Source of the DNA: a virus
Reading direction: 5' to 3' (one strand)
Virus record (IMG/VR): IMGVR_UViG_3300025118_000118
Coordinates: 1-26,374 of that record
DNA length: 26,374 bases
Every line of letters begins with the position of its first letter. Within the stretch, counting starts at the first letter, position 1. The notes beneath the pieces are model-generated. The model worked only from the letters and a program-made list of their open reading frames with translations. It did not search any database and was not told the DNA's origin. Positions 2,665 to 23,786 of the stretch are shown in pieces. A program made the position numbers and the translations under genes.

Positions 2665-3798
2665 TTAATGCAAGCTTAGCGACATGATGACGCAAGTATG
2701 ATTCCCTGATCTCCAGTAGGTAGGCATCCCTTCGCCTTCAAAGGCAGCGTCGATATCTTCTGTAGTGGCGAATTTCAGGCAATCCAAAACATACTTGGAG
2801 TTAAGGGCAATGCGGTTTTTTGAATCAGGATAAACAGAATCTTCAACCGGGAATACAGTAGATATATTTGTATCATGGTCTGGAAAGATAATGTCGAGTT
2901 CCTTGGTTAGCGTGAAAAAAGCTCTCTCTACTTCAGCGGCTTTTGCCAGGTTCTTTAAAGTAGTGTGTAGCTCTTTTCGGTTAACTCTGAAAGTCATAGC
3001 CTGGCCATAAAAAATATCTGGTACGTATTCCTGATAGTCTACGAAATCTACTTCTGATTGAAGCATGTAAAGTTTGGAATCAGAATCGAAAGCCTTGATA
3101 AGCTTTTGACTATCTGAGAAATCCAGGGATAGACCTCGAGTGTTTGCAGTCTTAATGTAGTGACGTAAAACTGCCAGGGAATCAGAGTCGATAGCGTAGT
3201 GGCGTTTAGTCTTGCCCTTATATTCCCCTTGCAAGACTGATACTGCCAGACGGTTTCCATCGGTACTCGCGGCCCCCAAATTGTCTGGAGTAGGTGAAAA
3301 AACTAAACCGTTGAACCCTTGATAGGAATTGTTTTTGGTATCGGCACAATGGGCCGCAAAATCTAAGTCTTGTAAAAGTGTTTTAGGCTTAGAGAAGTAA
3401 TAAGGATCAGAAGGGGCGAATTCTGGAGCCTGATGAAAATCGTCTATTTCTCGGGACATAAAAGTTACTTTAGTTTTCCCCTGGGAGAAATATCCCCGGC
3501 GTTGATCCGTATCAAAATAGATTTGAAGTAAGTCCTCGGGCTTGAAAACTTTCAAGGCTTTAAAAGTCTTGGCGGGAATGAGGAATTCCAAACCCTGAAA
3601 GTTGGGATTAGTATCCGCTTCAATGTTTTGAACCTGGTAGATTCTCAAATTTGTAGCGGATAGCTGGACCCAACCTGAACGGATATCAAACTTGATACTT
3701 TGCAATTCAGGTATCGACGTGACTTTAGGCACCGTTTTCTCTAAACGGGCAAAGGCAGTAATAAGGCGCTGTGCGGGTGTTTCTATTAAATTGTTCAT
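2665..3798 (-). CDS. dnaN: DNA polymerase III beta-subunit-like sliding clamp
   Basis: The 377-aa length is that of bacterial beta clamps. Clamp features are visible through the three repeated domains. 'AASTDGNRLAVSVL' (about residues 176-190) matches the ATDGHRLAL motif. 'VDYQEYVPD' resembles the FPDY segment. 'RVNRKELHTTLKNLAKAAE' opens the third domain, and 'LNSKYVLDCLKFATTEDI' matches the NxKYLLDxL motif. The C terminus 'HTCVIMSLSLH' replaces the usual YVIMPMRL. The protein would encircle DNA and tether the phage family A polymerase. The altered C-terminal residues, part of the partner-binding pocket in bacterial clamps, suggest adaptation to a phage partner. Start ATG 3798 follows the leader variant CAGAAAGGAAACCTT. 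Divergence from host clamps appears high but the fold assignment is good. Confidence 0.85.
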   Translation of the reverse strand: MNNLIETPAQRLITAFARLEKTVPKVTSIPELQSIKFDIRSGWVQLSATNLRIYQVQNIEADTNPNFQGLEFLIPAKTFKALKVFKPEDLLQIYFDTDQRRGYFSQGKTKVTFMSREIDDFHQAPEFAPSDPYYFSKPKTLLQDLDFAAHCADTKNNSYQGFNGLVFSPTPDNLGAASTDGNRLAVSVLQGEYKGKTKRHYAIDSDSLAVLRHYIKTANTRGLSLDFSDSQKLIKAFDSDSKLYMLQSEVDFVDYQEYVPDIFYGQAMTFRVNRKELHTTLKNLAKAAEVERAFFTLTKELDIIFPDHDTNISTVFPVEDSVYPDSKNRIALNSKYVLDCLKFATTEDIDAAFEGEGMPTYWRSGNHTCVIMSLSLH

Positions 3799-3818: not shown

Positions 3819-4016
3819 TTAATAACCAAGAATGTTTCGTGCATCCTTGATAGTCATAGCGGTTAGGATCTCTACCCCGTCACCCTGAAGAGAACTGTAA
3901 GGAACTTCAATTGCTACGCATATTCCTGAAAGAATATAAGCGTGATTCCCGTGCGATCGGACAAAGTGTAGGATAGTTTGTAGATGTTTGGGGACTGTAG
4001 TAGGTTGAATACTCAT
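3819..4016 (-). CDS. Small hypothetical protein, 65 aa
   Basis: A 65-aa protein whose ATG (4016-4014) overlaps the stop of the preceding gene in an ATGA, indicating coupling. It begins MSIQPTTVPKHLQTILHFVR; the middle 'AYILSGICVAIEVPY' looks like two beta strands, and the end is 'MTIKDARNILGY'. A C-terminal helix ending A-R-x-x-L-G-Y is common in short phage proteins of unknown role, but I cannot name the family. It is followed directly by the clamp gene leader. Confidence 0.68.
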   Translation of the reverse strand: MSIQPTTVPKHLQTILHFVRSHGNHAYILSGICVAIEVPYSSLQGDGVEILTAMTIKDARNILGY

Positions 4017-4204
4017 AGCTCAATATCACTTCCGTCAAAAGCATAGCCGCTTATTACAAAGCGGCCCGAGCGTCGAAAGATCTTTGAAAACTTGGAAGTG
4101 TAAATTCCATCGGGTGTTATCTCCCTGGTATTAGTTACACCAGGGACAAAGCCCTTAGATATCCAAGCGGCTACTTCCTTTTGGCTTATAAGTCTCTCTT
4201 TCAT
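4013..4204 (-). CDS. First gene of the leftward early operon, 63 aa, unknown
   Basis: ATG 4204 is the chosen start because GAGGAG lies 8-9 nt upstream. The longer reading to 4339 would run through the promoter and palindrome at 4251-4281 and is Ile/Tyr-rich low-quality sequence. The product starts MKERLISQKEVAAWISKGFV. Its N-terminal helix-turn pattern and 'TPDGIYTSKFSKIFRRSGRF' suggest a small basic DNA- or protein-binding domain, but no family is recognised. Being the promoter-proximal gene it would be made early and in quantity. Confidence 0.7.
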   Translation of the reverse strand: MKERLISQKEVAAWISKGFVPGVTNTREITPDGIYTSKFSKIFRRSGRFVISGYAFDGSDIEL

Positions 4205-4250
4205 GGTTTTAGCTCCTCTTTGGTTTTCTGTTAGTAGCGAATGTTTATTT

Positions 4251-4281
4251 ATTATCCTACGTAGGAAACTATATATGTCAA
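4251..4281 (-). promoter_or_regulatory. Early leftward promoter with embedded palindrome
   Basis: On the - strand there is a perfect TTGACA (complement of 4276-4281). The -10 candidates are GATAAT (complement of 4251-4256, 19-nt spacer) or TAGGAT at 16 nt. Between and over them lies the perfect 12-bp palindrome TCCTACGTAGGA (4255-4266), well placed as an operator. The first gene starts at 4204, leaving a leader of about 40 nt. Confidence 0.65.
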
Positions 4282-4602
4282 GGGGTAAATATATATATAT
4301 ATTAAATGAGGGATAATTACATTCATAAGAGAAAGACAAAAAAAGGTTATTTTAGGCATTTTTTAGTAAATATATATATCTAGGTACGGAAGTATAAAGG
4401 GCAGGGTAAGTCCAGGGAATGAGGATTTTATATGTTTGGGGGGCTTAGATATAAAGGGGCTATTTTAGACGTTTTTTGTTAGTTTGATCTTTCAAATTGG
4501 GTTTTGATGAACCAAGCTGAAGGGGGCTGAAGGGTGATTAAGGGAAAATAGCTCACTGAGAGGGGGTGACTCATAGTGCCTTAAAACTTTTTTGGAGTTA
4601 TG

Positions 4603-4696
4603 AGTCACCCGCTAACCCTTTGGTAGCCAAGGTCTCCAAGGTTTCTGTCATAAGTCTGTTTTGAGATAATAGTCACCCGCTAACCCTTTGGTAGCC
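4603..4696 (+). repeat. 26-bp perfect direct repeat, two copies
   Basis: Bases 4603-4628 and 4671-4696 are identical over 26 bp, with a 68-bp period. Each begins with the AGTCACCC end of the iteron-like motif and continues GCTAACCCTTTGGTAGCC. Only two copies are seen and the intervening sequence is not a spacer of CRISPR type. Confidence 0.85.
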
Positions 4697-4886
4697 TGCA
4701 TTTGAGAGGTAGGGTGTCTTATAACTATTGTATTATATGTGTTAAGGAATGTTATATACATATAAATACATACATTATAGGGAGGGGTGTAGCTATATAT
4801 ACCTACTTGGCGGAGAATGCATACAACTCCTGTCCGTCAACTGGTTTTTTTTGAAAGTTATGAGTCACCCTACCTCTCAAATGCAG
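4696..4886. repeat. 21-bp perfect inverted repeat, 149 bp apart
   Basis: Bases 4696-4716 are the exact reverse complement of 4866-4886. Each arm contains one end of an iteron-like copy plus the shared segment TACCTCTCAAATGCAG. The 149 bp between the arms includes an AT-rich stretch (4721-4775). The arms could form a cruciform or long RNA stem, or be recombination sites; no invertase gene is seen nearby. Confidence 0.85.
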
Positions 4887-5294
4887 AGCTGGAGCGGGTC
4901 GGAGGGTGTCTATTATATGTTTTTTGACTTATGCCAGGTATCTTGGATATGCAGGGTCAGAGTGGGCTAAGGGGCGACTCAAAGTTTGTGACAAATTGTG
5001 ACACGCTATGAGTCACCCCTTCTGGAGTAGGTATTTTAGTCTAATCGGGCTATAGCGGGTTATATCTTGGTTCATATAGGGTGTATTTTAGGGCGAACGG
5101 ACATAAAAGGTTTAGAAGCCTTGGTTTATGTATTTTTAGGGGTTTTGGCTTAGTTAAAATTAAGTTTGGAAGCTTTAAAAGTGTTTCGCGCAACCATAGC
5201 AGGCGGGGTTACCTTTAGTTAGTAGGTAGAGAAGGGGAAAGGCTTAGTACCTGGCAATACTGGGGCTTTCAGGTCGGTTTCCTTGTCAGTAGGT

Positions 5295-5342
5295 AAAAAA
5301 GGGCTGAAAAAGGTATGTTTTTGGGTACTTTTACCCTTTTTT
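5295..5342 (+). terminator. Weak intrinsic terminator-like hairpin
   Basis: GGGTA (5323-5327) and TACCC (5332-5336) form a short stem with a 4-nt loop, followed by six T (5337-5342). Alternatively AAAAAAGGG at 5295-5303 pairs with CCCTTTTTT at 5334-5342. It would stop + strand transcripts crossing the non-coding region. The stem is short, so this is tentative. Confidence 0.35.
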
Positions 5343-5359
5343 GCTTGGGTTTAGCTCTT

Positions 5360-5401
5360 TCAGGGGCTGTCAGTGGGTAGTCAGGGGCTGTCAGTGGGTA
5401 G
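5360..5401 (+). repeat. 21-bp tandem repeat, two exact copies
   Basis: Bases 5360-5380 are repeated exactly and without spacer at 5381-5401. The unit contains CAGGGGCTGTCAGTGGGTAG. Partial echoes (GTCAGTAGGTA at 5285, TTAGTAGGTA at 5218) lie 70-140 bp upstream. It could be slippage or a binding site pair. Confidence 0.85.
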
Positions 5402-5645
5402 TATTCACCGATTGTACTATATACATATATTTCACAATTCCGATCAAAAACACATCAAAACCTGGCCGTTTACTCCCATTTACTACCTGATCCCTTCCTT
5501 TCCCGGTCTCCTCTTGATTATTCCTGCTACTGGATCTATGGCCCTGGTTCAGCTGCCTATTGCCTGCTCAGGATCAGGCACTAGCCTTACCCGGTATCGC
5601 CAGGTGAAAGTGACTTTTCCAGCTTTTCATAATACCTATAGGGAG

Positions 5646-5665
5646 ATCGGAGCAAATCGGAGCAA
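5646..5665 (+). repeat. 10-bp tandem repeat ATCGGAGCAA
   Basis: Two exact adjacent copies, 5646-5655 and 5656-5665, followed 13 bp later by a run of nine G (5679-5687). Function unknown. Confidence 0.7.
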
Positions 5666-5778
5666 ATTCGAGGGATGAGGGGGGGGGTGTTTTGTGGATG
5701 ATAGGGGGTAGCCCCCCGGGTTCGGGCGTGATTTGTGTATAATACAGGTACCCACCCCACACAAAAGCCCCCAAAATC

Positions 5779-5833
5779 TAAACGTGTAGTATATATCTAA
5801 CTATACTTATATACTACACGTTTATGGTACAAT
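5779..5833 (+). promoter_or_regulatory. Operator (17-bp inverted repeat) and leaderless promoter
   Basis: TAAACGTGTAGTATATA (5779-5795) is exactly inverted at 5808-5824, with a 12-nt spacer. It is followed at once by TGGTACAAT, an extended -10 (TACAAT 5828-5833). The ATG at 5840 is 6 nt further on, so transcription would start on the start codon itself, and no Shine-Dalgarno is present. The inverted repeat covers the -35 and spacer region, as expected for an operator bound by a dimeric repressor, perhaps the downstream gene's own product. Confidence 0.65.
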
Positions 5834-5839
5834 GCTCCC

Positions 5840-6070
5840 ATGCCTTTACGTAAAATATCTATGAAAGAAAAAGTCTTTGCTTATATCCCTAAGAGGGGGA
5901 ACATCCTCTCTAAAGCCCTATGCGCTTGCCTTGGGAAACCTCTCAACAGTATTTACATCCATTTGGTAGCTCTGGAGAAAGAGGAAAGAGTTGAAAGGGT
6001 TAAAGTGCCCGGGGCTACTGAAGGGCATGAGAAACTAGCCTGGCAGCGAAAAAAGGATTCGCAGGCCTGA
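5840..6070 (+). CDS. Small winged-helix-like regulator, probable autorepressor
   Basis: A 76-aa basic protein. 'MKEKVFAYIPKRGNILSKAL' then 'CACLGKPLNSIYIHLVALEK' and 'EERVERVKVPG' follow a winged-helix layout: helix 1 (MKEKVFAYI), helix 2 (ILSKALCACLG), recognition helix (PLNSIYIHLVALEKE) and a beta hairpin (RVERVKV). The MarR/IclR-type pattern 'L---LG-----IY-HL--LEKE--V' is evident. ATG 5840 gives a leaderless mRNA; ATG 5861 is an alternative start but has no ribosome site either. The 17-bp inverted repeat at its promoter is the likely operator. It precedes the 171-aa gene by 39 bp and may share its transcript. The fold call is by pattern only. Confidence 0.65.
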   Translation: MPLRKISMKEKVFAYIPKRGNILSKALCACLGKPLNSIYIHLVALEKEERVERVKVPGATEGHEKLAWQRKKDSQA

Positions 6071-8090: not shown

Positions 8091-9437
8091 ATGGATGCCT
8101 ACCAAGACAGTCCTTCCCAGTTGACCCTGCCTTATAAGTTTACTCCGCGTCCGTATCAGATTCCGGCCTTTAACACCACCAAATCAAGGATCGCGATCTG
8201 TTGGCACAGACGAGCAGGAAAAGACCTGCTTATGTGGAATAAGCTCATTGCCCGTACTATGACAAGAAAAGGGCTCCATGCTTATTACTTTCCAGAGGCG
8301 AGACTTGGCAGGGACGTTATATGGGATGGTATGGACAACCAGGGCAGACCCTTTATGGATTACCTGCCTTACAATCTCATCAAGAGGCGTGATTCCCAAA
8401 AGATGCACATTGAGACTACCAACGGGTCCATGATTAAGATCTTTGGTGTCGATCACATGACCAACGTAGGCACAAATCCCGTCACCGCCATCTTATCCGA
8501 ATACTCGGTCCAAGATCCTAAAGGCTGGCAGCTCCTGCGCCCCATCTTCAAGGCGAACAAGGGCCAAGTCATGTTTAACTTCACCCCCAGAGGGAAGAAT
8601 CATGCTCATGACCTCTCATTACTGGCACAGGAAAACCCCGACTGGTTCTATGAAATTCTCACAATTGAGGACACCGGACTCCTCAACCAAGATGATATGG
8701 ACGAAGAGCGCAAAACGGGAATGCCTGAAGATCTACTCCTGCAGGAATACTACTGCTCTTTCACACTATCACCACCTGGAGCCTATTACGCTGAACAAAT
8801 GATGGCGTTGGAAACCTCTCACCGTATTACCAAGACCACTCACGACCCCCGCTTACCAGTGCATACCGCCTGGGACATAGGGGTAAACGATCCGACTTGT
8901 ATCTGGTATTTTCAGGTTACAACAGGCGGTCTCTTAACCTTTATTGATTACTCCGAGATCTCAAGAGGGGACATTTACAAGGCCCTGGATGAGTTGAAGG
9001 AAAAGCCCTACAGATACGGCACTCACCTTGCGCCCCACGATATCAATGCCAAACACTTCTCAGCCAAATCTACCTCGAGAGAGATAGCTAAAAATCACGG
9101 GGTTAACCTGGTGGTAGTTCCAAAGACAGAAGTGTTTGAGGGGATCAGAACAACCCGCTCACTCTTGATGCGCTGTGTCTTTGATAAAGAGAAATGTCGC
9201 AGAGGAATCTCAGCGCTCAAGGATTATGCGTGTAAATGGGATGAAAAAAATCGTACCTACACAAAATCTCCAATTCATAACTGGGCTTCCCATGCTGCCG
9301 ATGCCCTCAGGGTACTGGCCACGGGAGAGCAGTTCTTAGGTAAATCAAACTTTGATAAGGATGACTTAACTCAGTCCAGATCAACAAGACCAAATTTTCA
9401 AACAAAGAGGCACCGATCAACTTGGATGGGTGCGTAA
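8091..9437 (+). CDS. Terminase large subunit
   Basis: A 448-aa protein, the ATPase-nuclease motor that cuts and packages phage DNA into the prohead. The ATPase half has a deviant Walker A 'HRRAGKD' (39-45), Walker B 'TAILSEYS' (132-139, catalytic Glu about 137) and the coupling motif 'FNFTPRG' (162-168). The RNase H-like nuclease half supplies acidic residues in 'AWDIGVNDPT' (Asp262), 'APHDINAK' (Asp317) and 'NWASHAADALR' (Asp404). The length is normal. The start has no Shine-Dalgarno and follows a -10 box by 6 nt, so it is probably leaderless. It opens the late operon. No small terminase gene precedes it on the same strand. Confidence 0.95.
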   Translation: MDAYQDSPSQLTLPYKFTPRPYQIPAFNTTKSRIAICWHRRAGKDLLMWNKLIARTMTRKGLHAYYFPEARLGRDVIWDGMDNQGRPFMDYLPYNLIKRRDSQKMHIETTNGSMIKIFGVDHMTNVGTNPVTAILSEYSVQDPKGWQLLRPIFKANKGQVMFNFTPRGKNHAHDLSLLAQENPDWFYEILTIEDTGLLNQDDMDEERKTGMPEDLLLQEYYCSFTLSPPGAYYAEQMMALETSHRITKTTHDPRLPVHTAWDIGVNDPTCIWYFQVTTGGLLTFIDYSEISRGDIYKALDELKEKPYRYGTHLAPHDINAKHFSAKSTSREIAKNHGVNLVVVPKTEVFEGIRTTRSLLMRCVFDKEKCRRGISALKDYACKWDEKNRTYTKSPIHNWASHAADALRVLATGEQFLGKSNFDKDDLTQSRSTRPNFQTKRHRSTWMGA

Positions 9438-12642: not shown

Positions 12643-12669
12643 AAAGAATCAGTTTGCAGGAGGGTGAGA

Positions 12670-15528
12670 GTGAACCACAAGATCATGCACAAGTTTAATT
12701 TGTTAAGGGCAGTCAAAATGCCATTGGTCCTGTGTACCATTTTTTTATGCCTCTCACCCTTTCTGTACTCTGCTGATACAAGTTTCAAGGGAAGTTATCT
12801 TCCCTGGGCCTCCAGGATCATTACCCTTACGGGGGTTGATGCGAGTGGAACAGTTACCGCAACCAATCTTCAGATTAACGGTAGCGGTACTTTTGCAGAT
12901 GACGTTCAGATCAATGACGATCTCAATGTCTCATCTGAAGGAACCTTTGCTTCTATTGTAGTCACAGGGCTTACTGAAGGAACCATAGACAACGTGGTTA
13001 TTGGGGGCTCGACAGCGAAAGCGGGAACCTTTACCACCTTAATAGGTACTGCCGGAACTATTAACGGTTCAACTATTGGGGGTACTTCAGCAGGAGCAGG
13101 AACCTTTACAAATTTAACAGCCAACGGAACCTTTACCGCTACAGGCGGGACTATTGACGGGATTCCTATTGGGGCCACAACTTCTTCGGCCGCGCGGTTT
13201 CTTTACCTCACTAGCGCCGGGATGACTTTGACTTCTACGATTCAAGGGGGCGCTGATGCAGCCCTCGGGGATCTTACTCTTACGGGGGATATAGTAACCG
13301 CCGTTGGTGCAAATTTCTCAGGCAATATAACAGTGGTAGATATTAACTCCACAGGAAACATCTCAGGTTCAAGTTCTGCTTTTACTACCGCAGTCTTTAC
13401 AGAAGTGCCAAACGGGTTTATGGTCGATGGGACAGTGACCGCCACAAGTTTTTCTGGCGATGGGTCTGGGATTACAAACCTATCAGCGGGAACACAGATT
13501 GTTGACGGCGATGCCCATGCCACCGCGAGCGACGGCGTGAGTATCATATTCGATGTAGATGGTGGTGGTAATGAAATGACCATACTGACTACCTCAGTCG
13601 GTATCGGCACACCAACCCCAAGCAAAGAACTTACTGTGAATGGGGAAATCACGGCCTCATCTGAAATATCCAGTTCCACAACCGTTAGTGGCACCACCCT
13701 AACCGCATCCACATTGATCACAGCACCACAAGGAACTTTCACCAACATTTCAGGCAACGGAACCGGAATAGGGGGCGTGGTTCACACGGCCACAAATGAA
13801 ACCATCAATGGCACAAAAACCTTCTCTGATATTGATGTTGATGGCGGGTATATCGATGGAACCCCCATCGGCCAAACATCTGCATCAAATGCTAAATTTG
13901 GAATCGTGACGGCAACCACAGCCAACCTGACGACCATCAACGCCACAACGATCAACGGCACAATCAACACGGCTACTCAAGGCACCATAACAGACATCGG
14001 AACTCAAGTTACTGCCGACATTAACGGCGGGTATATCGACGGAACCCCCATCGGCCAGAATGTAGCTTCCAACGCAATCTTTGGAACCGCCACGGCTACG
14101 ACTGGAAACTTTACAACCATCAACGCCACAACGATCAACGGAACTTTGGGGGCCGCCGCACAGCCAAATATAACCAGCTTGGGCGCATTAGCCAGAGTCA
14201 CAGCTACCGACTTTGACGGATCAAATGGAAATTTCTCAGGAACCGTCACGGGGCAATTAAAGGGGGGCAACACTCCAACGGTTAGCGGCACAGATAGTGC
14301 ATCTCTCGGGGGCTTGAGAAATATTGTATCTGGAGATTATAGCTCAGTAGCGGCGGGAACAGACAACACCGCCAGTGGAAACTATAGCTTCATAGGCGGC
14401 GGGATTCAAAACAGCGCCTCGGATACATACAGCACGGTCCTTGGTGGATTGATAAACGCTGCCAACGGCTTTAATTCTTCGGTTCTCGGCGGGTCTAATA
14501 ACTTCGCGAATGGCGATAGATCTCTAATTCTTGGGGGGCAAAATCTAACCGTGACGGGTGAGAACGTGGTAGCCTTTCGGAATGGGAACCTATCCTCTCC
14601 CATCACCTTAACCGCAAGTTATACAATGTTTTTGGACTCCATGTCCTTATGCGTAAAAGAGGGCAACGAATGCACGGCGTCGAGCTACTCAAATGGGGAA
14701 ATTTACACTGACCGCGTATGGGCTGACGAAGCTCTCCATGTGGACGCGCCCGCTGGTGCAGCCTATGTTACTATTGACTCCGCTGATAATTTAGCTGCTG
14801 TTTATCTAAAAAGCGCTACGGAAGGAAGCGATTATGAATGGGCCGTTCAAGTCACCGCAAGCGCAGATGCTCTCTTGATAGGCACAGATACGGGGGCGGG
14901 GGCAAATCACGCATTCCACCCGAACTCGATGTCAATCAACGGTGTCAATCCGGCAGGATACACCCTTCACGTTAACGGCACTGAGCACGTTACCGGGGCA
15001 ATAACCAGCGACACCTCTATTGATGCGCCATCTGTAAAGGTCAGCGGTGTAAGTCTCGTGCTCCCCTCATACGGTGGGCTTTATATAGCCGATGACTCAA
15101 TCACCCAGGTTACTATCTCAGCGGCGGGGCATTACGCCACCACCTCAACCTGGACAAAATCAGTAGACAAGTCGGGATTCCTTACAGATTCGCAAGGTAA
15201 TTCAGATCACTCTACCTACCCAAGTGACGGATTCATAGTTGATACCAATGGGGCCGGGATATACAACTTTCAGCTTCAGGTTACCGCCAGCGGGACAAAT
15301 AACGCCGAGGTCAAAATCTATCCCCATATTGACGGGGTAATCATGGCGGGGTGCGGAATCAAGTTGAAACTAGACTCTGGTGGTAGCTCCAGTCGAGGAG
15401 CTGTTTCATGCCTTCAGACTCTATCTGTAGGAGAGTTTGTAGATGTTCGTATCACGGCAGACGGAGCGGGTAACACGGTGGCAATCTCTCCCGGAAACTT
15501 CACGCTCACAAGGGTGGATAATAACTAA
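12670..15528 (+). CDS. Large trimeric fibre/adhesin-like protein with signal peptide (about 952 aa)
   Basis: GTG 12670 is chosen because AGGAGG ends 6 nt before it; the in-frame GTG 12664 is too close. After NHKIMHKFNLLRAVK comes the core MPLVLCTIFLCLSPFLYSA, then DTSFKGSYLPW as in the previous gene. Next are Thr/Gly-rich strands, a duplicated unit 'GGYIDGTPIGQ' + 'TTINATTINGT' (about 395-500), and 'AAAQPNITSLG' of fibre type. Residues about 548-645 are YadA-head-like ('SGDYSSVAAGTDNTASGNYS', 'STVLGGLINAANGFNSSVLG'). The last 150 residues resemble a jelly-roll tip ('GIYNFQLQVTASGTNNAEVK'). Its stop overlaps the start of a chaperone-like gene. It is probably a receptor-binding fibre, or an exported adhesin. 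Confidence 0.82.
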   Translation: MNHKIMHKFNLLRAVKMPLVLCTIFLCLSPFLYSADTSFKGSYLPWASRIITLTGVDASGTVTATNLQINGSGTFADDVQINDDLNVSSEGTFASIVVTGLTEGTIDNVVIGGSTAKAGTFTTLIGTAGTINGSTIGGTSAGAGTFTNLTANGTFTATGGTIDGIPIGATTSSAARFLYLTSAGMTLTSTIQGGADAALGDLTLTGDIVTAVGANFSGNITVVDINSTGNISGSSSAFTTAVFTEVPNGFMVDGTVTATSFSGDGSGITNLSAGTQIVDGDAHATASDGVSIIFDVDGGGNEMTILTTSVGIGTPTPSKELTVNGEITASSEISSSTTVSGTTLTASTLITAPQGTFTNISGNGTGIGGVVHTATNETINGTKTFSDIDVDGGYIDGTPIGQTSASNAKFGIVTATTANLTTINATTINGTINTATQGTITDIGTQVTADINGGYIDGTPIGQNVASNAIFGTATATTGNFTTINATTINGTLGAAAQPNITSLGALARVTATDFDGSNGNFSGTVTGQLKGGNTPTVSGTDSASLGGLRNIVSGDYSSVAAGTDNTASGNYSFIGGGIQNSASDTYSTVLGGLINAANGFNSSVLGGSNNFANGDRSLILGGQNLTVTGENVVAFRNGNLSSPITLTASYTMFLDSMSLCVKEGNECTASSYSNGEIYTDRVWADEALHVDAPAGAAYVTIDSADNLAAVYLKSATEGSDYEWAVQVTASADALLIGTDTGAGANHAFHPNSMSINGVNPAGYTLHVNGTEHVTGAITSDTSIDAPSVKVSGVSLVLPSYGGLYIADDSITQVTISAAGHYATTSTWTKSVDKSGFLTDSQGNSDHSTYPSDGFIVDTNGAGIYNFQLQVTASGTNNAEVKIYPHIDGVIMAGCGIKLKLDSGGSSSRGAVSCLQTLSVGEFVDVRITADGAGNTVAISPGNFTLTRVDNN

Positions 15529-16051: not shown

Positions 16052-16389
16052 GCCCGGAACAGATGACTAAACGAATAGATAACTTGGTTAGACAGGTTGC
16101 GGATTCAGAAAAATGTATTGCCACTTTAAAGGAGCGAGTTCAAGGCCTACTCATTAGTTTGACCAATCACAAGGATAGGACTGAAAAGGAATTCGAAAGG
16201 ATGATTAGTGTGGGCGATAAATTAGCTAATGCAGTGGATCGGCTTACTACAGAAATGCACATTTTCCAGGTTAACGAGGCCAAGAAGGTTGGCAAAGAGG
16301 AAGGCAAGGCGTGGGTCTTTGCGAAGACCGCGGCCACAATGACCCTTTGCGCTTCTGTAGGGGGATTGATTGTGAAGTTTGTCAAATGA
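16048..16389 (+). CDS. Coiled-coil protein with C-terminal membrane helix (holin/XhlA-like?)
   Basis: A 113-aa protein whose ATG overlaps the preceding TGA. Residues 1-75 are a heptad-rich coiled coil ('MTKRIDNLVRQVADSEKCIA', 'MISVGDKLANAVDRLTTEMH'). Then 'GKEEGKAWVFAKTAATMTLC' leads into a hydrophobic segment 'ASVGGLIVKFVK' at the C terminus. This matches the plan of XhlA-type and other small phage lysis-associated membrane proteins. No endolysin is in the window, so a lysis role is uncertain. An alternative is a tail or fibre assembly factor anchored in the membrane. Confidence 0.65.
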   Translation: MSPEQMTKRIDNLVRQVADSEKCIATLKERVQGLLISLTNHKDRTEKEFERMISVGDKLANAVDRLTTEMHIFQVNEAKKVGKEEGKAWVFAKTAATMTLCASVGGLIVKFVK

Positions 16390-16526
16390 GTACCAAACAA
16401 ATATCTGATAACCCTCAAGGCCAGCAAGTGACCTCGGACGATTTAAAGAAGCCTAAAGAAGAGAAGCCTTTGAGTCAGGCTGAGATACTTTTAGGTAAGC
16501 CTTACCAGAAGAAATGGGAGAAATAA
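16386..16526 (+). CDS. 46-aa hydrophilic protein
   Basis: ATG 16386 overlaps the previous TGA (ATGA) and is preferred to the in-frame ATG 16311, which would lie wholly inside the upstream gene. The product starts MSTKQISDNPQGQQVTSDDL, is Lys/Glu/Pro-rich and ends EILLGKPYQKKWEK. It is probably disordered with a short C-terminal helix. Its TAA overlaps the next ATG. No family is recognised. Confidence 0.6.
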   Translation: MSTKQISDNPQGQQVTSDDLKKPKEEKPLSQAEILLGKPYQKKWEK

Positions 16527-16882
16527 TGGGGTGGTTGAGAAAGCTTTGGGGTCTAATCAAGCGGCCTATTAAAAGGATTGTTACCCAGGATGCCGCGGTG
16601 AATGTTATCGGGGAATTGGTATCTGTGATTATTACTGGAGTGGGGGAAGTGCTTATAGACCGTAAGACCCGGCAGAGACTCAGGGATTTGAACCTGCTTT
16701 TAGAGGGAGCCCTTGCCAAGCTCAGAGAATATGGGATTGTTATCCAAAAAGAAAGAGCCTTTAAAAAAGCACTTGAAGACTTTATCGATCATAAGAAGCT
16801 AGGTACTGAGGCCCAGAAGTGGGTTGAAGAGAGAATTACAAAAATCAGTGAAGAGGATATAGAAGATCCTGAGATACTATGA
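16526..16882 (+). CDS. Hypothetical protein with amphipathic N terminus, 118 aa
   Basis: ATG 16526 shares its A with the previous stop and has GGGAG 6 nt upstream; ATG 16514 is a weaker alternative. It begins MGWLRKLWGLIKRPIKRIVT, a basic amphipathic helix. A hydrophobic helix 'VNVIGELVSVIITGVGEVLI' (about 26-45) follows, then a charged helical C-terminal two thirds. It could associate with the membrane. Position next to the coiled-coil membrane protein suggests a shared lysis or envelope function, but this is inference. It ends in an ATGA overlap with the portal gene. Confidence 0.65.
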   Translation: MGWLRKLWGLIKRPIKRIVTQDAAVNVIGELVSVIITGVGEVLIDRKTRQRLRDLNLLLEGALAKLREYGIVIQKERAFKKALEDFIDHKKLGTEAQKWVEERITKISEEDIEDPEIL

Positions 16883-18888
16883 AATTAGAAAATTCTCAAA
16901 CATTTCCAGGTTCAAGGGGTGAAGTACAGCACTTCAATCTTGAGGACTACCCGGAAGCTAAACGGCAAAAGATGGAGGACTCCCATAAAAGGGATCTCTT
17001 CAGAGAGGGTATTTCCCGTTTAGAAAATACGATCAGCGGGGATGAGCATAACCGCAAGGATATGCACGATGACCTGAGGTTCCTCAACAACGATCAGTGG
17101 GATTCTGAGGTACTGGCAGCAAGAACTGAAGCGGGAAGACCCTGCATCACCGCGAACTACCTCTCAACCCTTGTCGATTCCATTGTTGGTGAATATCGTC
17201 AAAACCCCCCAGGGTTAAAGATTATCCCAAGGGGCGGGGAAGATGACGTAGAAGTAGCCAACATTCTACAGGGCCTTGTCAGGCATATTGAACAGAAGGG
17301 CAACGGCAGGACCGCGAGAACCTGGGCTTTGGAGTGTGCCGTCAAATGTGGACAGGGGTTTTACCGGGTAAAGACTCGATATAGGAATACCGAATCTTTT
17401 GACCAGGAAATCATCTATGAAAAAATACTCAACCCCTTATCAGTCTTTTCAGACCCCGATGCCGTAGGTGCTGACCTCGGGGATATGAACTTCTGTTTCA
17501 TTACTCAGAACATGTCTCGCACCAAGTTTAAAGAGATATTCCCCGGGCATACCCCGTCTTCGGTATCGATAGGTTCAGCCTCCACAGCCCTTAATTCTGG
17601 GGGAGAAGAGATCATCCGGGTCGCTGAGTATTGGTACAAAGAATACAAGAACAAAACTCTTGTCGAGATGGATAACGGGTCTGTCATGGAGAAGAAGTTA
17701 GTTCCAAAGGGAGAACGGAAGAGGATTAAGAAGACCCGCACTATTAAAGCTGCTCAGGTAAAAATGGCTTATATGAGCGGAAGTGAAATCCTTGGAGATC
17801 CTATAGAGTGGCCGGGGAAGTATATCCCCATCATCCGGGTCTACGGGAAAGAGGATGTAGTAGATGATGTAATCTACCGCCGGGGCATTGTCAGAAATGG
17901 TAAGGATTCCCAGCGGGTTTACAACTACATGCGCTCTTCTGCTGTAGAGCATGTGAGCCAAAGTCCCAGAGCCCCATACATAGGTACTAAAGAAATGTTT
18001 GAGGGGCACGAAGAGGAATGGGATAACTCTAACATTGAACCAAGGCAGAGGCTTACTTATCAACGTGACCCAGACGGCAATGTACCGAAAAGGGAGACCC
18101 CGCCTACAATCCCCTCAGGTATGGTCAACGAAGCTCAGAGTGCTGTCAATGACATGCACTTTACTACCGGAGTCTTTCAGGCAGCTACAGGGCAGAAGTC
18201 TAATGAGGTATCCGGCAAGGCCCTTCGAGCGAGAAATAGAGAGATTGCTAATAACGCCTATGCTTTTCTCGGCAATTTCAACAACGCTTTAATCCACGAA
18301 GGCCGGGTAATCGTTGATCTAATCCGGGGAGTCTATGACACCTTTCGTATTATTCAGATTGTAGATGAGATGGATCAGCCACAAGAGGCCGCGATCAATG
18401 TTCCTGATGATACTGTAACCCCCGGAAAGGGTGTTGATCGGGTTATTAGTGATGTGACTGTTGGTGAGTACGATGTGCAAGTAGCAGTAGGGCCAGGGTA
18501 TCAGACTAGAAGAGAAGAAGGTTTCGACCAGATACTTGAATTGACCCGGCACAACCCGAATATCCTCCCAATGGTTATGGATGTTCTCGCCGGGATGAGT
18601 GACTGGTACGGCGCGGATCAATTGAGACTTCGTTTTGAAAAAGCTCTGCCCCCAGATATTAAAGAGTCAGAAGGTATCGAAGCTGGGCCTCCTCCCCCTC
18701 CCGATCCAGCGGTACAGGCAGAGCAACAGAAGAATCAGTTTGAGCTTGAGAAATCCAAGCTCGAGATTCAGAAGCTACAGCTACAGGTTGAATCTAGCAA
18801 AAAAATGGATGATGAACGAGTTCAACAGGTGGCGGCGCAGACTGTTATGCGCCTCATGAAAAATGCACGAGAAAGGAGCAAACAGTAA
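16879..18888 (+). CDS. P22-like portal protein
   Basis: A 669-aa protein, close to the size of P22 gp1 (725 aa). It forms the dodecameric ring through which DNA enters and leaves the head. Family signs are 'LRFLNNDQWDSEVLAARTEA' then 'GRPCITANYLSTLVDSIVGE' (about 69-105), 'KILNPLSVFSDPDAVGADLG' (about 180-200), the wing/stem region and 'VSGKALRARNREIANNAYAF' (about 445-465). The C terminus has 'GPPPPPDPAVQAEQQ' followed by a long charged helix (about 610-669), equivalent to the barrel helices of P22-type portals. It is coupled by ATGA to the gene before and by TAATG to the scaffold gene. The assignment is strong. Confidence 0.9.
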   Translation: MKLENSQTFPGSRGEVQHFNLEDYPEAKRQKMEDSHKRDLFREGISRLENTISGDEHNRKDMHDDLRFLNNDQWDSEVLAARTEAGRPCITANYLSTLVDSIVGEYRQNPPGLKIIPRGGEDDVEVANILQGLVRHIEQKGNGRTARTWALECAVKCGQGFYRVKTRYRNTESFDQEIIYEKILNPLSVFSDPDAVGADLGDMNFCFITQNMSRTKFKEIFPGHTPSSVSIGSASTALNSGGEEIIRVAEYWYKEYKNKTLVEMDNGSVMEKKLVPKGERKRIKKTRTIKAAQVKMAYMSGSEILGDPIEWPGKYIPIIRVYGKEDVVDDVIYRRGIVRNGKDSQRVYNYMRSSAVEHVSQSPRAPYIGTKEMFEGHEEEWDNSNIEPRQRLTYQRDPDGNVPKRETPPTIPSGMVNEAQSAVNDMHFTTGVFQAATGQKSNEVSGKALRARNREIANNAYAFLGNFNNALIHEGRVIVDLIRGVYDTFRIIQIVDEMDQPQEAAINVPDDTVTPGKGVDRVISDVTVGEYDVQVAVGPGYQTRREEGFDQILELTRHNPNILPMVMDVLAGMSDWYGADQLRLRFEKALPPDIKESEGIEAGPPPPPDPAVQAEQQKNQFELEKSKLEIQKLQLQVESSKKMDDERVQQVAAQTVMRLMKNARERSKQ

Positions 18889-19964
18889 TGAAAACCACTT
18901 TTGACGCGGATGCGATTCTGGCAGGTGTTGAAAAACATGACCCGGATTCAAAGCCGAATCAGCCTAAACCAACCATGCAGGTTATTGGCACAGGACAGGC
19001 TCGGGAGATTGAAACCTCAGAGGATGGGAACATAAGAGTCCTGAGATCTGACGGTACGATCCCTGAGAAGAAAGTTTTGTACCAGGAATTTGCAGATGGT
19101 TCAGAAGGTACTGATAAAACCGACCAAACAGAGGGAGCGGAACCCTCGTCTACCGATCCAAAAGAAGGAGCGGAACCTTCAATAGAAGCCGATAAGAAAG
19201 TCCCATCTGGGGTACAAAGGCGTATTAACGAACTTACTAAAAAGAATCACGATCTTTCTAGTAAGTATGATGAGTTAGCCCGTTTTTCGGATAGCCAGAA
19301 ACAGGCACTAACCACGCAACAAAAAGAGCTGGACCTTATCAAAGCCGAAAGACCTAAGCAGGATTCTTTTGAGAATGAAAGCGATTTCCAGGAAGCAGTT
19401 TTAGACTGGAGGGTAAAAACGTCTGCAAGAGAGATTGCGGTACAAGATGCCTCGACACGAGTTAAAGGGTATGAACAAGAGCAGCAGAAAGCGCAAACGG
19501 ATATTCAATCCACTTCTCAGGAAATGGTTCGGGCCAAGATAGATGAAGCTATCGCAGTTGACCCGGAATTCAAGTCCCTGGTAGTGGATAATGAAAAACT
19601 TCCAATCAGCGCGGGTATGCTCTCTGTCATGTCTGAGTCGGAGCATTTTCACGATATCGCAAAACACTTTGGACGAAACCCCCAGGAAGCCCAGAGAGTA
19701 GCACAAATGCCCCCACAGCAGGTCGCTATGGAAGTGGCGCGGCTCGAAGGGAAAATCGAGTACATGAAATCACAACCACCGCCGGAAGTTAAAACGTCTT
19801 CCGCACCCCCTCCCCCGCCTGTGAGTCTTCACGGAACGGGCGGTGTCGCACCCCGCAAAGATGCGGGAATGTCTATGCAGGATATATTTTCCCACATGGA
19901 TCAAGCCGATGCCGACGAGCGGGAACTGCGAAAGCACGGGAAGAGAAAATATGTCGGGTATTAA
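18888..19964 (+). CDS. Scaffolding protein
   Basis: A 358-aa acidic, helical protein placed between portal and coat, as gp8 is in P22. It would direct coat assembly and leave the prohead. The N terminus MKTTFDADAILAGVEKHDPD and the Glu/Ser/Thr-rich region to about 105 look disordered. Residues about 110-215 are a long coiled coil ('RRINELTKKNHDLSSKYDEL'), with a further helix at 'VAMEVARLEGKIEYMKS'. The C-terminal tail is basic ('DERELRKHGKRKYVGY'), fitting the coat-binding role of the C-terminal basic helix-turn-helix in P22 scaffold. Sequence similarity alone is not decisive; position and composition are. Confidence 0.8.
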   Translation: MKTTFDADAILAGVEKHDPDSKPNQPKPTMQVIGTGQAREIETSEDGNIRVLRSDGTIPEKKVLYQEFADGSEGTDKTDQTEGAEPSSTDPKEGAEPSIEADKKVPSGVQRRINELTKKNHDLSSKYDELARFSDSQKQALTTQQKELDLIKAERPKQDSFENESDFQEAVLDWRVKTSAREIAVQDASTRVKGYEQEQQKAQTDIQSTSQEMVRAKIDEAIAVDPEFKSLVVDNEKLPISAGMLSVMSESEHFHDIAKHFGRNPQEAQRVAQMPPQQVAMEVARLEGKIEYMKSQPPPEVKTSSAPPPPPVSLHGTGGVAPRKDAGMSMQDIFSHMDQADADERELRKHGKRKYVGY

Positions 19965-20022
19965 ACCCCTAGCTCTGAATGAAACTTTCGGGAAGGTGGT
20001 ACTTATTCTTGGAGGTTAGAAA

Positions 20023-21246
20023 ATGGCGTTAGCCAATACTTTGATTACAGATGACATTATCGCCGCTCTCGCTGTGCGTGAGCTTGATAACGCTCTGGTT
20101 GCTTGTGGACTGATCCACAGGGATTACGAACCAGAGTTTGATAAGGTTGGAGAGTCCATCCGTATCCGAAAGCCGGTTAAGATCAAGAGTACCAGTGGAG
20201 CAGTTATTGCAAGCACTCCCAATCTGCTTGAGGAGAACGAAACTTTCACCGTTGCGAGTCGTGAGAAAGTCCACTGGGCTTTTACTACTCAAGACCTGAA
20301 GATGAAGATTGAAGACTTCAATCATCGTTATGTTCGACCAGGTATGATTTCCATTGCTAACAAGATCGAGTCTGATCTTCTTGGCCTTTACACCGGGATC
20401 TACAACTTTGTAGGTACTCCAGGTACAACCCCCTCAAGCATCGCTACCATTGGTGATGCCGGTCAGCTTCTTGATGAGGAAATGGCCCCTTTTGAGGAAA
20501 GAGCTTGTGTAATGGGACCTGCGATGCAGAACAAGATGACCACTGGAGATCTCAAAGGTTATTTCAATCAGCAGTTAGCTGAAGATCTAACCCGCCGCGG
20601 TTTTCTCGGACAACTCAACAACACCCAGTTTTACATGGGTCAGGCTGTTAAGCAGCATACTGTTGGTGAGTATTCTGGGACTCCCCTGGTTAACGGGGCT
20701 ACCGCTGAAGGTGCCACTACTATCAATATCGATGGTTGGGGCGGTTCTAACGGCGATGTAGTTCTGACCAAAGGTGATGTTTTTACCGTTGCAGCTGTGA
20801 ATGCGGTAAATGGTCGTACCTATGAAAGCACCGGATCTCTTCGGTTCTTCGTAGTGACTGCCGATTCCGCGCAGAATGCCTCTGGTGAATCAGCTACCGC
20901 TGTTAGTCCTCGTGTTGTAAGTTTGGCTGATACCAGCAGTAAAGCGCCCTATGCGACTATAGACGTTTTGCCTGCTGACAATGCGGCTATTACGATCAAG
21001 ACCGGGGCTTCTCAGAGTCAACACCCTCAGAACTTGATGTTCCACCCGGATGCTTTCGCACTTGCTACCATTCCGCTTGACGTTCCACGTTCAGCAGTTT
21101 ATGGGGCTAGTGTGACCTACAAAGGTTTGAATGTAAGGCTCTATTCTTACCTTGACGGAACAAACGATGAGGAAAATTATCGTCTTGATGTTTTGTACGG
21201 CGTACACACTATCAATGCTCCCCTTGGTGTAAGGATCACGGGGTAG
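20023..21246 (+). CDS. Major capsid (coat) protein, P22 gp5 family
   Basis: A 407-aa protein, near P22 coat size (430). It begins MALANTLITDDIIAALAVRE with the N-arm. HK97-fold elements follow: 'VGESIRIRKPVKIKSTSGAV', 'WAFTTQDLKMKIEDFNHRYV' and 'MISIANKIESDLLGLYTGIY'. The inserted domain of P22-like coats is recognisable from about 220 to 345 ('TKGDVFTVAAVNAVN', 'RFFVVTADSAQNASGESATA', 'VLPADNAAITIKTGAS'), then 'NLMFHPDAFALATIPLDVPR' returns to the core fold. GGAGG is about 8 nt before the ATG, in a 58-bp gap after the scaffold. Two hairpins follow the gene. It would be the most abundant product of the late operon. Confidence 0.93.
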   Translation: MALANTLITDDIIAALAVRELDNALVACGLIHRDYEPEFDKVGESIRIRKPVKIKSTSGAVIASTPNLLEENETFTVASREKVHWAFTTQDLKMKIEDFNHRYVRPGMISIANKIESDLLGLYTGIYNFVGTPGTTPSSIATIGDAGQLLDEEMAPFEERACVMGPAMQNKMTTGDLKGYFNQQLAEDLTRRGFLGQLNNTQFYMGQAVKQHTVGEYSGTPLVNGATAEGATTINIDGWGGSNGDVVLTKGDVFTVAAVNAVNGRTYESTGSLRFFVVTADSAQNASGESATAVSPRVVSLADTSSKAPYATIDVLPADNAAITIKTGASQSQHPQNLMFHPDAFALATIPLDVPRSAVYGASVTYKGLNVRLYSYLDGTNDEENYRLDVLYGVHTINAPLGVRITG

Positions 21247-21303
21247 TAAGCGTTTTGGCGCTTATCCTTTCTGTGTTAGACAGGGTTTCGGCCCTGTCTT
21301 TCT
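21247..21303 (+). terminator. Two hairpins after the coat gene; attenuator or terminator
   Basis: TAAGCG (21247-21252) pairs with CGCTTA (21259-21264). Next AGACAGGG (21278-21285) pairs with CCCTGTCT (21292-21299), followed by TTCTC. The second stem is 8 bp with a short T tract, so it could lower readthrough from the highly expressed coat gene into downstream genes. Confidence 0.6.
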
Positions 21304-21325
21304 CGGGGAGGAAAGGACTACGGAT

Positions 21326-21490
21326 ATGCTGATAACAGGAAGGACTAAGAACTTGACGATGGTGTACCATCCTATAAGTGCTCCCCACGGGCGCAAGGTT
21401 GATATCCACCAGGCTAAAGATTTGATTAGGAAAAAAGGGTACTTTGACACCCCGGCTAAGTACGCGGCTCCTAAGTATGGAAGGAATTAA
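21326..21490 (+). CDS. Small late protein, 54 aa (paralogue of the next gene)
   Basis: ATG 21326 behind GGGGAGGAAAGGA. The product starts MLITGRTKNLTMVYHPISAP and ends with 'KKGYFDTPAKYAAPKYGRN'. The pattern 'MVYHP--AP-G--V----A--L---GY-DTPAK(Y/F)' is shared with the 55-aa gene that follows, so the two look like a tandem duplication. Similar short proteins ('GWVDSPAKF') occur next to capsid or adaptor genes in many phages, with unknown function; head completion is a guess. Confidence 0.72.
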   Translation: MLITGRTKNLTMVYHPISAPHGRKVDIHQAKDLIRKKGYFDTPAKYAAPKYGRN

Positions 21491-21491
21491 A

Positions 21492-21659
21492 ATGAGCAAG
21501 TGTTTTATGTATCATGAGGACTTAGCCCCTGAGGGGGAAATTGTCGAGTCCAAGGATATTCCTAAGCTTGAGAAAGCCGGGTATGTAGATACCCCTGCCA
21601 AGTTTGGAATTGAGAAACCTAAACCCAAACCCGTTTCCCGGGTTAAAAAGGATAAGTAG
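21492..21659 (+). CDS. Small late protein, 55 aa ('DTPAKF' family)
   Basis: ATG 21492 with AAGGA upstream, 1 nt after the previous stop; the longer in-frame start at 21444 lies inside the paralogue. It begins MSKCFMYHEDLAPEGEIVES and continues DIPKLEKAGYVDTPAKF, then a Lys/Pro-rich tail (EKPKPKPVSRVKKDK). It is related to the gene before it over the first 40 residues, but the tails differ. It is followed 4 nt later by the adaptor gene. Confidence 0.72.
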   Translation: MSKCFMYHEDLAPEGEIVESKDIPKLEKAGYVDTPAKFGIEKPKPKPVSRVKKDK

Positions 21660-21663
21660 ATAA

Positions 21664-22407
21664 ATGTCTTTAACAGGTGTGGGTCTTATAGAGTCGGCAA
21701 TGCGGCTAATAAATGTTCTCTATACAGGGGAGTCTGCTTCTACACAGGAGAAGACAGATATTTTGGAGGCATTAAATTTAATGCTCTCCTCCCTCTATAC
21801 TGAGAATTATTTTCTCCCTCAGGAAAATGAAATGTCCTGGGCGGTAGATAGCACTTATACCGCGCCTGCCTCTATAGGTACTGACCCCTCGCCTAGTTCA
21901 GAATATGGGGGACCACATATCGCACAGGTCCGGCCCATGTCTATTAACTACGCATGGGTCAGAGACAGCGGAGGGCTAGACTCCCCGCTCGATCTTATAT
22001 CCTGGAAGGACTATGATTTCCACTACGGGAATAAGTCGTCTTCAGGGAGACCAGGTATCTTGTCTTTTAAACCTGGCTGGGTTACAGGGTATATCACCCT
22101 CTATCCAACACCAGACACCAATTACACTGTTTTCATATCAACACTTCAGAGCTTTAGTTTCATCACAGATGCAACCCTGGCCCTGGGTTATCCTACGGAA
22201 TACCTCGAAGCTTTGAAGTACCTGCTTGCCCTTCGTATTGCCCCTGAGTTTGGGAAGCCTATCAATCCTTTTATTGTACAAGAGGCTAACCGGCTCAAGG
22301 GAAACATGAAGAGGCTCCAGCAGAATGTGTCCTCAAGGACAGTGTTTGAACTGAAGAACCGTAGGAGAAATGGGGTTTCACGCGCCGGATTCTTTGGGGG
22401 TCTGTAG
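21664..22407 (+). CDS. P22 gp4-like head-to-tail adaptor
   Basis: A 247-aa protein in the place of P22 gp4 (166 aa; here longer). That protein closes the portal and joins the tail machine. It begins MSLTGVGLIESAMRLINVLY. Family-like features are the first helices with 'EALNLMLSSLYTENYFLPQE' and 'PRPMSINYAWVRDSGG'-type strands (the exact text is 'VRPMSINYAWVRDSGG'). A 'W-DYDFHYGNKSSSGRPGIL' segment follows, then 'LGYPTEYLEALKYLLALRIA' and a final basic helix. An internal bypass product is not needed. Its TAG overlaps the GTG of the stabilisation gene. Confidence 0.82.
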   Translation: MSLTGVGLIESAMRLINVLYTGESASTQEKTDILEALNLMLSSLYTENYFLPQENEMSWAVDSTYTAPASIGTDPSPSSEYGGPHIAQVRPMSINYAWVRDSGGLDSPLDLISWKDYDFHYGNKSSSGRPGILSFKPGWVTGYITLYPTPDTNYTVFISTLQSFSFITDATLALGYPTEYLEALKYLLALRIAPEFGKPINPFIVQEANRLKGNMKRLQQNVSSRTVFELKNRRRNGVSRAGFFGGL

Positions 22408-23786
22408 TGCTTATAGACTTTGTAGGCCCGGCTTATGCCCTCAGAACTCCTAATCTCAATGCCCAGCAGTGTATCAATTGGTACGTCAGGGCAGGAGGTC
22501 CGGGGGGCAAGAGCGCAGGAGCGCTTTACCCCACTCCGGGGTTAGAAGCTTTTGTCACCCTGGCAGCAGCGGCTAAAGTCCGAGGGCTTATATCCACCGA
22601 CGATAAACTTTATGCTGTCAGTGGAACCAAACTCTACTCCATTACCGAAGCAGGGACCATGACAGAGCTGGGGACAATTCCCGGCACTGATCCCATATCC
22701 CTTGCTCATAACGGGGTTGAAGTCTTTGTTGCTAACGGGACTTCTACGGGGTACAGGTTTGTTATCTCAGGATCTACTTTCTCATCTGTAGCACTCCCAG
22801 CGGCAATCCGACAGGTAGTGTTTCTCGATGGGTATTTTGTAGGGGTTGAGTTAGGCGGGCAGAAGGTCTACGTATCTACCCTCTATGATGGTAGTGCCTG
22901 GGCTTCTCTCGATTTCGCAAGCGCTGAGATCAACCCAGATAAGTCTCTGGCCATTATCGCAGATCAAAGAGAACTGATGATCGCCGGAACAAAATCTACC
23001 GAATTCTGGTACAACTCAGGAAATGCGGATTACCCCTTTGAGAGAATCAGCGGAGGTATAACAGAATATGGCTGTGCGGCCCCCTGGTCTGTTGCTTCAA
23101 TCGCGGACTCTAAATTCTGGCTTACCAACCATCGCACGGTTGTTATGGCCTCCCAGTGGCAGGCACAACCCATTGGCACTGACGCGCTCCACGAAACAAT
23201 CGCAGGATACTCTACGATCTCTGATGCTGAGGGGATGACCTACAGCATCGATGGGCACTACTTTTACGCACTAACTTTTCCGACTGAAGGGGCAACGTGG
23301 GTTTACGATTTGAATACTCAGATGTGGCACGAGAGGCAAAGTCCCTCCCTGACCCACTTTCGAGGTACCTTCTGTACGGAGCTGAACGGGGTTTGGTATG
23401 TAGGGGACTACACCAACGGGAAGGTCTACAAACTCACCCCCACGGTTTACACAGAAAACGGTGCTGTAGTTACGAGAACCCGTACAACCCCAGTTATCAG
23501 TGAAGAAGATAAACGCATTACCCTGACCAGACTCCAGATTGATTTTGAGGAGGGGATCAATGCCGCAGGTGATCCTCAAGCAGATCTCTCCTGGTCAAAA
23601 GATGGAGGGCATACTTTCTCCCCGGTGCAAAGTGAATCTATTGGGGCCACAGGTGCGTACACTAATAGAGTGGTATGGAGAAGGATAGGCCAATTCCGTG
23701 AGATCATTTTTAAACTTCAGGTAGCTCATGATATGAGAGCAATTGTCCTGGGGGCCTTTGGCGAATTAGAAGTAGGGGAGGACTAA
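22407..23786 (+). CDS. P22 gp10-like packaged DNA stabilisation protein
   Basis: A 459-aa protein starting at GTG 22407 in a TAGTG overlap. 'FVGPAYALRTPNLNAQQCIN' then 'WYVRAGGPGGKSAGALYPTP' is the typical opening of the Phage_stabilise family, whose member P22 gp10 (472 aa) forms the hub below the portal adaptor. The rest is beta-propeller-like repeats ('LYAVSGTKLYSITEAGTMTE', 'VYDLNTQMWHERQS', 'VWYVGDYTNGKVYKLTPTVY') and a C-terminal beta domain. Length and position both agree with gp10. No tail needle gene of P22 gp26 type follows; two small genes take its place. Confidence 0.87.
   Translation: MLIDFVGPAYALRTPNLNAQQCINWYVRAGGPGGKSAGALYPTPGLEAFVTLAAAAKVRGLISTDDKLYAVSGTKLYSITEAGTMTELGTIPGTDPISLAHNGVEVFVANGTSTGYRFVISGSTFSSVALPAAIRQVVFLDGYFVGVELGGQKVYVSTLYDGSAWASLDFASAEINPDKSLAIIADQRELMIAGTKSTEFWYNSGNADYPFERISGGITEYGCAAPWSVASIADSKFWLTNHRTVVMASQWQAQPIGTDALHETIAGYSTISDAEGMTYSIDGHYFYALTFPTEGATWVYDLNTQMWHERQSPSLTHFRGTFCTELNGVWYVGDYTNGKVYKLTPTVYTENGAVVTRTRTTPVISEEDKRITLTRLQIDFEEGINAAGDPQADLSWSKDGGHTFSPVQSESIGATGAYTNRVVWRRIGQFREIIFKLQVAHDMRAIVLGAFGELEVGED

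Follow-up and report, generated by a model that had tools for sequence, protein, structure and literature searches.

A gene-free block in the genome of an uncultured phage carries a long, imperfect inverted repeat (dyad) on which ten iteron-like sites lie in mirror order around an AT-rich centre. At a probability of about one half, we consider it to be a cis-acting replication origin, i.e., the site at which two opposed initiator hexamers would be loaded in a phage of the PrimPol-SF3 type. An origin is judged most likely because the array has opposed iterons as well as a long potential stem-loop, with a centre prone to melting.

Genome context of the gene-free block

The stretch of DNA analyzed (hereafter, the window) is an IMG/VR virus record of 26,374 bases. 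Both of its ends overlap with IMGVR_UViG_3300025109_000021 (G003), a second contig of 38,182 bases, with 5 mismatches over positions 16065-26374 and none over positions 1-548, and the two join into a circle, or a circularly permuted genome, of ~53.7 kb. Features of the region and its surroundings are listed in Table 1.

At 1.6 kb, the block is the largest gene-free gap of this genome; the other gaps exceeding 200 bp measure 339 and 248 bp. ORF listing and codon-usage scoring recovered no ORF with coding-like codon usage inside it, which bears out the gene-free region of the original prediction within slightly wider limits. The 65-aa ORF at the left border has a good RBS but falls under the threshold of the gap scan, and the gap becomes 4017-5839 if this ORF is left out. 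The flanking small ORFs have no Pfam or PHROG match, and an Rfam scan of the region at the gathering score yielded chance-level matches only, with nothing near threshold.

Leftward of the block, two 65-aa ORFs precede the gene for a DnaN-like sliding clamp; on the rightward side, small ORFs (5840 and 6110) are followed by a methylase gene, leftward, at 6701 and by TerL at 8091. The clamp is so diverged that a tblastn search of 50,697 phage records revealed no relative, and the clamp query gave no relatives in IMG/VR or phages. The proposal that leftward replication genes diverge from rightward genes at this place holds for the clamp; DNA polymerase A, an SNF2-type helicase, an Enc34-type SSB and the primase-helicase are encoded elsewhere on the circle, together with a DUF2800/PDDEXK nuclease, a MerR-like protein and a sigma-r4-like protein. 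TerS (phrog_51) is at ~38.1-38.8 kb of the circle (15436-16113 of contig L024), and the distance of ~23 kb between it and TerL (window 8091-9437) on the closed circle is unusual. A 954-aa protein encoded at 12664-15528, tail-fibre-like by look, has internal DNA repeats that give the highest 500-bp repeat score in the window.

Table 1. Features of the gene-free block and related loci (window coordinates unless a contig is named).
Feature	Position	Strand	Basis or remark
Gene-free intergenic region	4208-5839		ORF listing with codon-usage scores; flanked by leftward ORF 4013-4210 and rightward ORF 5840-6070
Left AT-rich element, possible unwinding element	4286-4386		81% AT; holds copy 1 of TATTTTAG
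TATTTTAG motif	4348-4355; more copies at 4461, 5032, 5084	+	Motif count
Left arm, 182-bp imperfect inverted repeat	4545-4726		blastn self-match, E 4e-9; to ~4507 with looser scoring
Dyad centre	4727-4855		4727-4786 is 75% AT
Right arm, 182-bp imperfect inverted repeat	4856-5037		As left arm; reaches ~5075
Site 1, TATGAGTCACCC	4564-4575	-	Mirror of site 10
Site 2, TATGAGTCACCC	4599-4610	+	Mirror of site 9
Site 3, degenerate CATAAGTC	4649-4660	+	Mirror of site 8
Site 4, TAATAGTCACCC	4667-4678	+	Mirror of site 7
Site 5, TATAAGACACCC	4712-4723	-	Mirror of site 6
Site 6, TATGAGTCACCC	4859-4870	+	Mirror of site 5
Site 7, TAATAGACACCC	4904-4915	-	Mirror of site 4
Site 8, degenerate CATAAGTC	4922-4933	-	Mirror of site 3
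Site 9, TTTGAGTCGCCC	4972-4983	-	Mirror of site 2
Site 10, TATGAGTCACCC	5007-5018	+	Mirror of site 1
21-bp tandem pair TCAGGGGCTGTCAGTGGGTAG, both copies exact	5360-5401	+	Repeat search
DnaN-like sliding clamp (first large gene on leftward side)	2665-3798	-	PF02767, 2e-6; phrog_947, 2.5e-26
Sashavirus TGCACGTTGTGNATTA array, Salmonella phage Sasha	L102:27956-28146
Sashavirus TGCACGTTGTGNATTA array, E. coli phage KarinMuster_Bas82	L104:25084-25543

A mirror array of iteron-like sites on a long dyad

The two arms of the dyad are complementary at 120 of 182 positions (66%), without gaps, and are centred at 4791. The ungapped dyad score is 64, while dinucleotide shuffles of the region (n = 150) have a mean of 12.2 and a maximum of 18, and no second dyad spanning up to 800 bp scores even 18 in the window or G003. 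The long repeats noted earlier are mainly this single inverted repeat. In a fold stability scan of 212 genome windows, the dyad window is far ahead of all others (pooled z of -10), a position that it owes to the inverted repeat; predicted folding z is ~-12 on both RNA strands and ~-11 as single-stranded DNA, with little local structure in the region outside the dyad. The second-strongest fold region (L024:9049-9800) was rejected as an origin candidate, as the primase gene starts within it and it lacks a repeat array.

The original prediction counted at least seven copies of a 15-bp motif in both orientations. The 15-mer AGTTATGAGTCACCC has just two exact copies (4596-4610 and 4856-4870); the count of seven stands for the 12-bp core TATGAGTCACCC at up to 2 mismatches, and sites are indeed present on both strands. 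Four of these seven are exact, and all lie within 455 bp (4564-5018). In the whole window, 1.65 matches are expected, and none of 100 shuffles reaches 8; the single match outside the region is at 26104. Degenerate copies at 4649, 4904 and 4922 raise the number of TATGAGTCACCC-type sites to ten, which form five mirror pairs about position 4791. Neither the rest of the genome nor the viral contigs searched showed a similar site cluster.

Since homologous arms entail a mirrored placement of sites, this placement is not counted as additional evidence. Two facts are independent of it: the motif recurs within one arm, and it is preferentially conserved between arms, which match at 43/48 (90%) at the four best site pairs vs. 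77/134 (57%) elsewhere (p = 3e-5). As is typical of iteron origins, a short motif is clustered in one non-coding place and AT-rich DNA adjoins the iterons, on the left (81%) and in the centre (75%, within the top 0.4% of 60-bp windows). In the left element, 4287-4386 has the highest AT content of all 100-bp stretches in the genome, confirming the AT-rich end described before. Repeats in opposite orientations surround the centre, as in opposed-repeat origins. The four TATTTTAG motifs are likewise confirmed; these are the only copies in the window (1.49 expected; 2 of 100 shuffles reach 4), and the 38-kb contig G003 has none.

The start of a third contig (L005) falls at window position 5400, adjoining or just inside the 21-bp tandem pair. 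This contig differs from the window at 9 of 379 positions in 5400-5778 and at 11 of 4674 positions beyond, i.e., the right end of the block changes at ~10 times the rate of genes and is thus under weak constraint. Positions 4286-5091 are the probable functional core.

Other elements were observed in and beside the block. A perfect 17-bp inverted repeat with a 12-bp spacer (5779-5824) lies just upstream of the 76-aa ORF at 5840 and is a candidate operator; its symmetry is broken in L005, in which five left-arm bases (5784-5789) differ. A leftward sigma-70-like promoter with a perfect TTGACA box (4281-4254; TTGACA-16-TAGGAT), whose -10 region is covered by the palindrome TCCTACGTAGGA, is probably the promoter of the clamp operon. 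The + strand of 4300-5400 is strongly C-poor and G/T-rich, with a GC skew of +0.4 to +0.6 in most 100-bp bins (exceptions are 4600-4699 and 4800-4899); the skew turns to -0.57 at 5400-5499. This strand skew could stem from long single-stranded exposure (R-loop or transcription).

The primase-helicase and a possible mechanism of initiation

The same phage encodes an SF3 initiator-type protein with DNA-binding domain matches, as in elements with opposed-repeat origins. This 731-aa primase-helicase has PrimPol, D5_N, DUF5906 (SF3) and C-terminal winged-helix (Cdc6_C/Pox_D5) matches, and its gene is at ~42.7-44.8 kb of the circle. The C-terminal domain covers about residues 600-731. The family profile matches pRN1 ORF904 (2.5e-9) and the primase 6k9e (3e-22), and the single sequence matches 7ola (1e-14), a SaPI5 protein; the AlphaFold2 model is too poor for use (pLDDT 50).

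Judging from sequence, the primase-helicase may bind at the array. In the mechanism we propose, its C-terminal winged helix would bind the TATGAGTCACCC-type sites, and the five mirrored sites of each arm would assemble two opposed hexameric rings. The rings would then melt the AT-rich centre (about 4727-4790), where the PrimPol domain would prime bidirectional synthesis, to be taken over by polymerase A and the sliding clamp. Binding of the protein to the sites, loading of hexamers and the start of replication at this place are all suggested by analogy with known systems.

Comparison with known origins

Initiators of this class recognize, or have been proposed to recognize, the origins of their own elements. 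Rep of the Staphylococcus aureus pathogenicity islands (SaPI) and the related Cch2 bind iterons via a C-terminal domain (PMC7581432), and SaPI origins resemble that of SV40 in that opposed repeats recruit two head-to-head hexamers (PMC9894130). The phage shares with SaPI the opposed iterons and an SF3/D5-type initiator with a C-terminal DNA-binding domain (PMC7581432, PMC9894130). However, the SaPI origin directly follows rep, whereas the phage gene is 13 kb from the array; the phage motif is unrelated as far as compared, and the phage arms form one continuous inverted repeat of 182-220 bp with a 129-bp centre.

Large stem-loop origins have been proposed for the PrimPol-SF3-winged-helix replicators of pRN1 and phage BIP-1 (PMC4234260). 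The archaeo-eukaryotic PrimPol, SF3 and winged-helix domains and a long stem-loop are common to pRN1 (ORF904), Bordetella phage BIP-1 and our phage (PMC4234260). The pRN1 stem-loop is ~100 nt long, just 3' of the replication gene and without iterons, while the phage dyad is ~490 nt long, has ten repeated sites and is not 3' of the primase gene; a search of L024:8000-14700 for a stem-loop directly 3' of the PrimPol-SF3 gene found no inverted repeat of at least 16 nt within 600 bp. The alpha protein of satellite phage P4 is a multifunctional primase-helicase whose C-terminal winged helix binds origin repeats (reviewed in PMC4234260). P4 alpha is similar to the phage protein in being a primase-helicase with a C-terminal winged helix (PMC4234260), but its primase is of the Toprim type rather than a PrimPol.

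Searches for relatives found no contig carrying the region or the array among those searched. A motif pattern scan of IMG/VR returned 18 contigs with single, chance-like matches, and the hairpin pattern GGGTGACTC-N15-40-GAGTCACCC returned 17 that are otherwise without similarity to the region and also chance-like. Protein queries recovered only the same phage or relatives at ~40% identity or less, and TerL and primase queries against GTDB genomes had no matches. A comparable dyad is absent from 8 viral contigs and 3 isolate phages with related primases, and contigs with a related DNA polymerase have no comparable long inverted repeat.

Sashavirus primases (Salmonella phage Sasha and E. coli phage KarinMuster_Bas82) are ~35% identical over the helicase-winged-helix part. 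These two phages share six to seven TGCACGTTGTGNATTA repeats, all of them in the non-coding DNA that directly precedes TerS, at a distance of several kb from the primase gene (in KarinMuster_Bas82, the iteron region is at ~53.1-53.5 kb of its record); the array is a candidate origin or pac site. Like the sites of the window phage, the Sashavirus repeats are confined to a non-coding junction remote from a related primase gene, and therefore iteron blocks remote from the primase gene do occur in the group. Unlike those sites, they have another motif in mostly direct orientation, are without a long dyad and adjoin TerS.

Weighing the alternatives

Against an origin is the distance of 13 kb to the initiator gene, which in SaPI, pRN1 and BIP-1 is immediately followed by the origin. 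The lack of a homologous region in the contigs searched and of a comparable dyad in related PrimPol-D5 phages also counts against it. Cumulative GC skew had been suggested as a check, and the detrended skew of the ~53.7-kb circle has its minimum at ~46.8 kb and its maximum at ~38.8 kb, neither at the region; this says little because skew in this genome follows gene strand. The strong skew inside the region also fits a transcribed or single-stranded state. A DnaA-dependent origin was rejected, with 25 near-matches in the window vs. 21 expected and only 3 in the region. The block might instead be an operator array, on which a phage regulator (MerR-like, sigma-region-4-like or a small winged-helix protein) binds TGAGTCA-containing sites and controls divergent promoters, the inverted duplication being incidental. 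The block does separate divergent genes, a strong leftward promoter-like site is present, MerR-like and sigma-r4-like proteins are encoded by the phage, and the core TGAGTCA is near-palindromic, as for a dimeric regulator. We find this unlikely, given that ~280-740 bp separate the sites from the leftward promoter and at least ~820 bp lie between them and the rightward gene, that other promoters in the genome are without such a cluster, and that ten sites in strict mirror layout are more than ordinary operators have.

A structured non-coding RNA, an imperfect hairpin of ~490 nt transcribed from either strand, would account for the very stable predicted folding and for a + strand that resembles a transcribed non-coding strand in composition. 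This reading is weakened, and to us distinctly improbable, since the two strands are similarly stable, a result of the inverted repeat, and since G-U-type mismatches between arms (16 on +, 10 on -) are in no clear excess over composition, by our own estimate. In addition, the conserved positions are repeated DNA motifs rather than paired helices in general, and we found no Rfam family and no clear framing pair of promoter and terminator. Packaging (pac/cos) or partition, through a terminase or a partition protein, is suggested by the location of the block at a divergent junction, with its end 2.3 kb before TerL, and by the position of the Sashavirus array directly upstream of TerS; it is very unlikely in view of the phage's own TerS far from the block, a circle closed by overlaps of two contigs with no end at the block, and no ParA/ParB recognized among the proteins scanned. 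Finally, divergence between the arms of about one third, the rapid change at 5400-5778 and the lack of homologues among our searches would suit a decaying inverted duplication without present function, to which we give similarly little credence: the motif sites are preferentially conserved, the arms are gapless relative to each other, and a block of 1.6 kb is costly where the remaining gaps are at most 339 bp. An iteron origin, as originally predicted, is still the best reading, and the symmetry of the array, its AT-rich centre and the class of the encoded initiator all favour it; the description as loose iterons had missed the dyad.

Implications for PrimPol-SF3 phages

Phages of the PrimPol-SF3 type with a mapped origin are, to our knowledge, few. 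It is conceivable, if rather doubtful, that the region represents a novel type of origin, in which ten iterons of a free-living phage make up a 500-bp mirror array that receives a PrimPol-SF3 protein in trans, as two head-to-head hexamers and 13 kb from the gene of the protein. If true, it would give bacterial viruses an equivalent of the SV40-type origin, one whose symmetry selection would have maintained through a third of sequence divergence. The clear dyad array offers a concrete, testable place at which two hexamers might load themselves. Among the phages compared, KarinMuster_Bas82, with its analogous iteron region, suggests itself as a test case.
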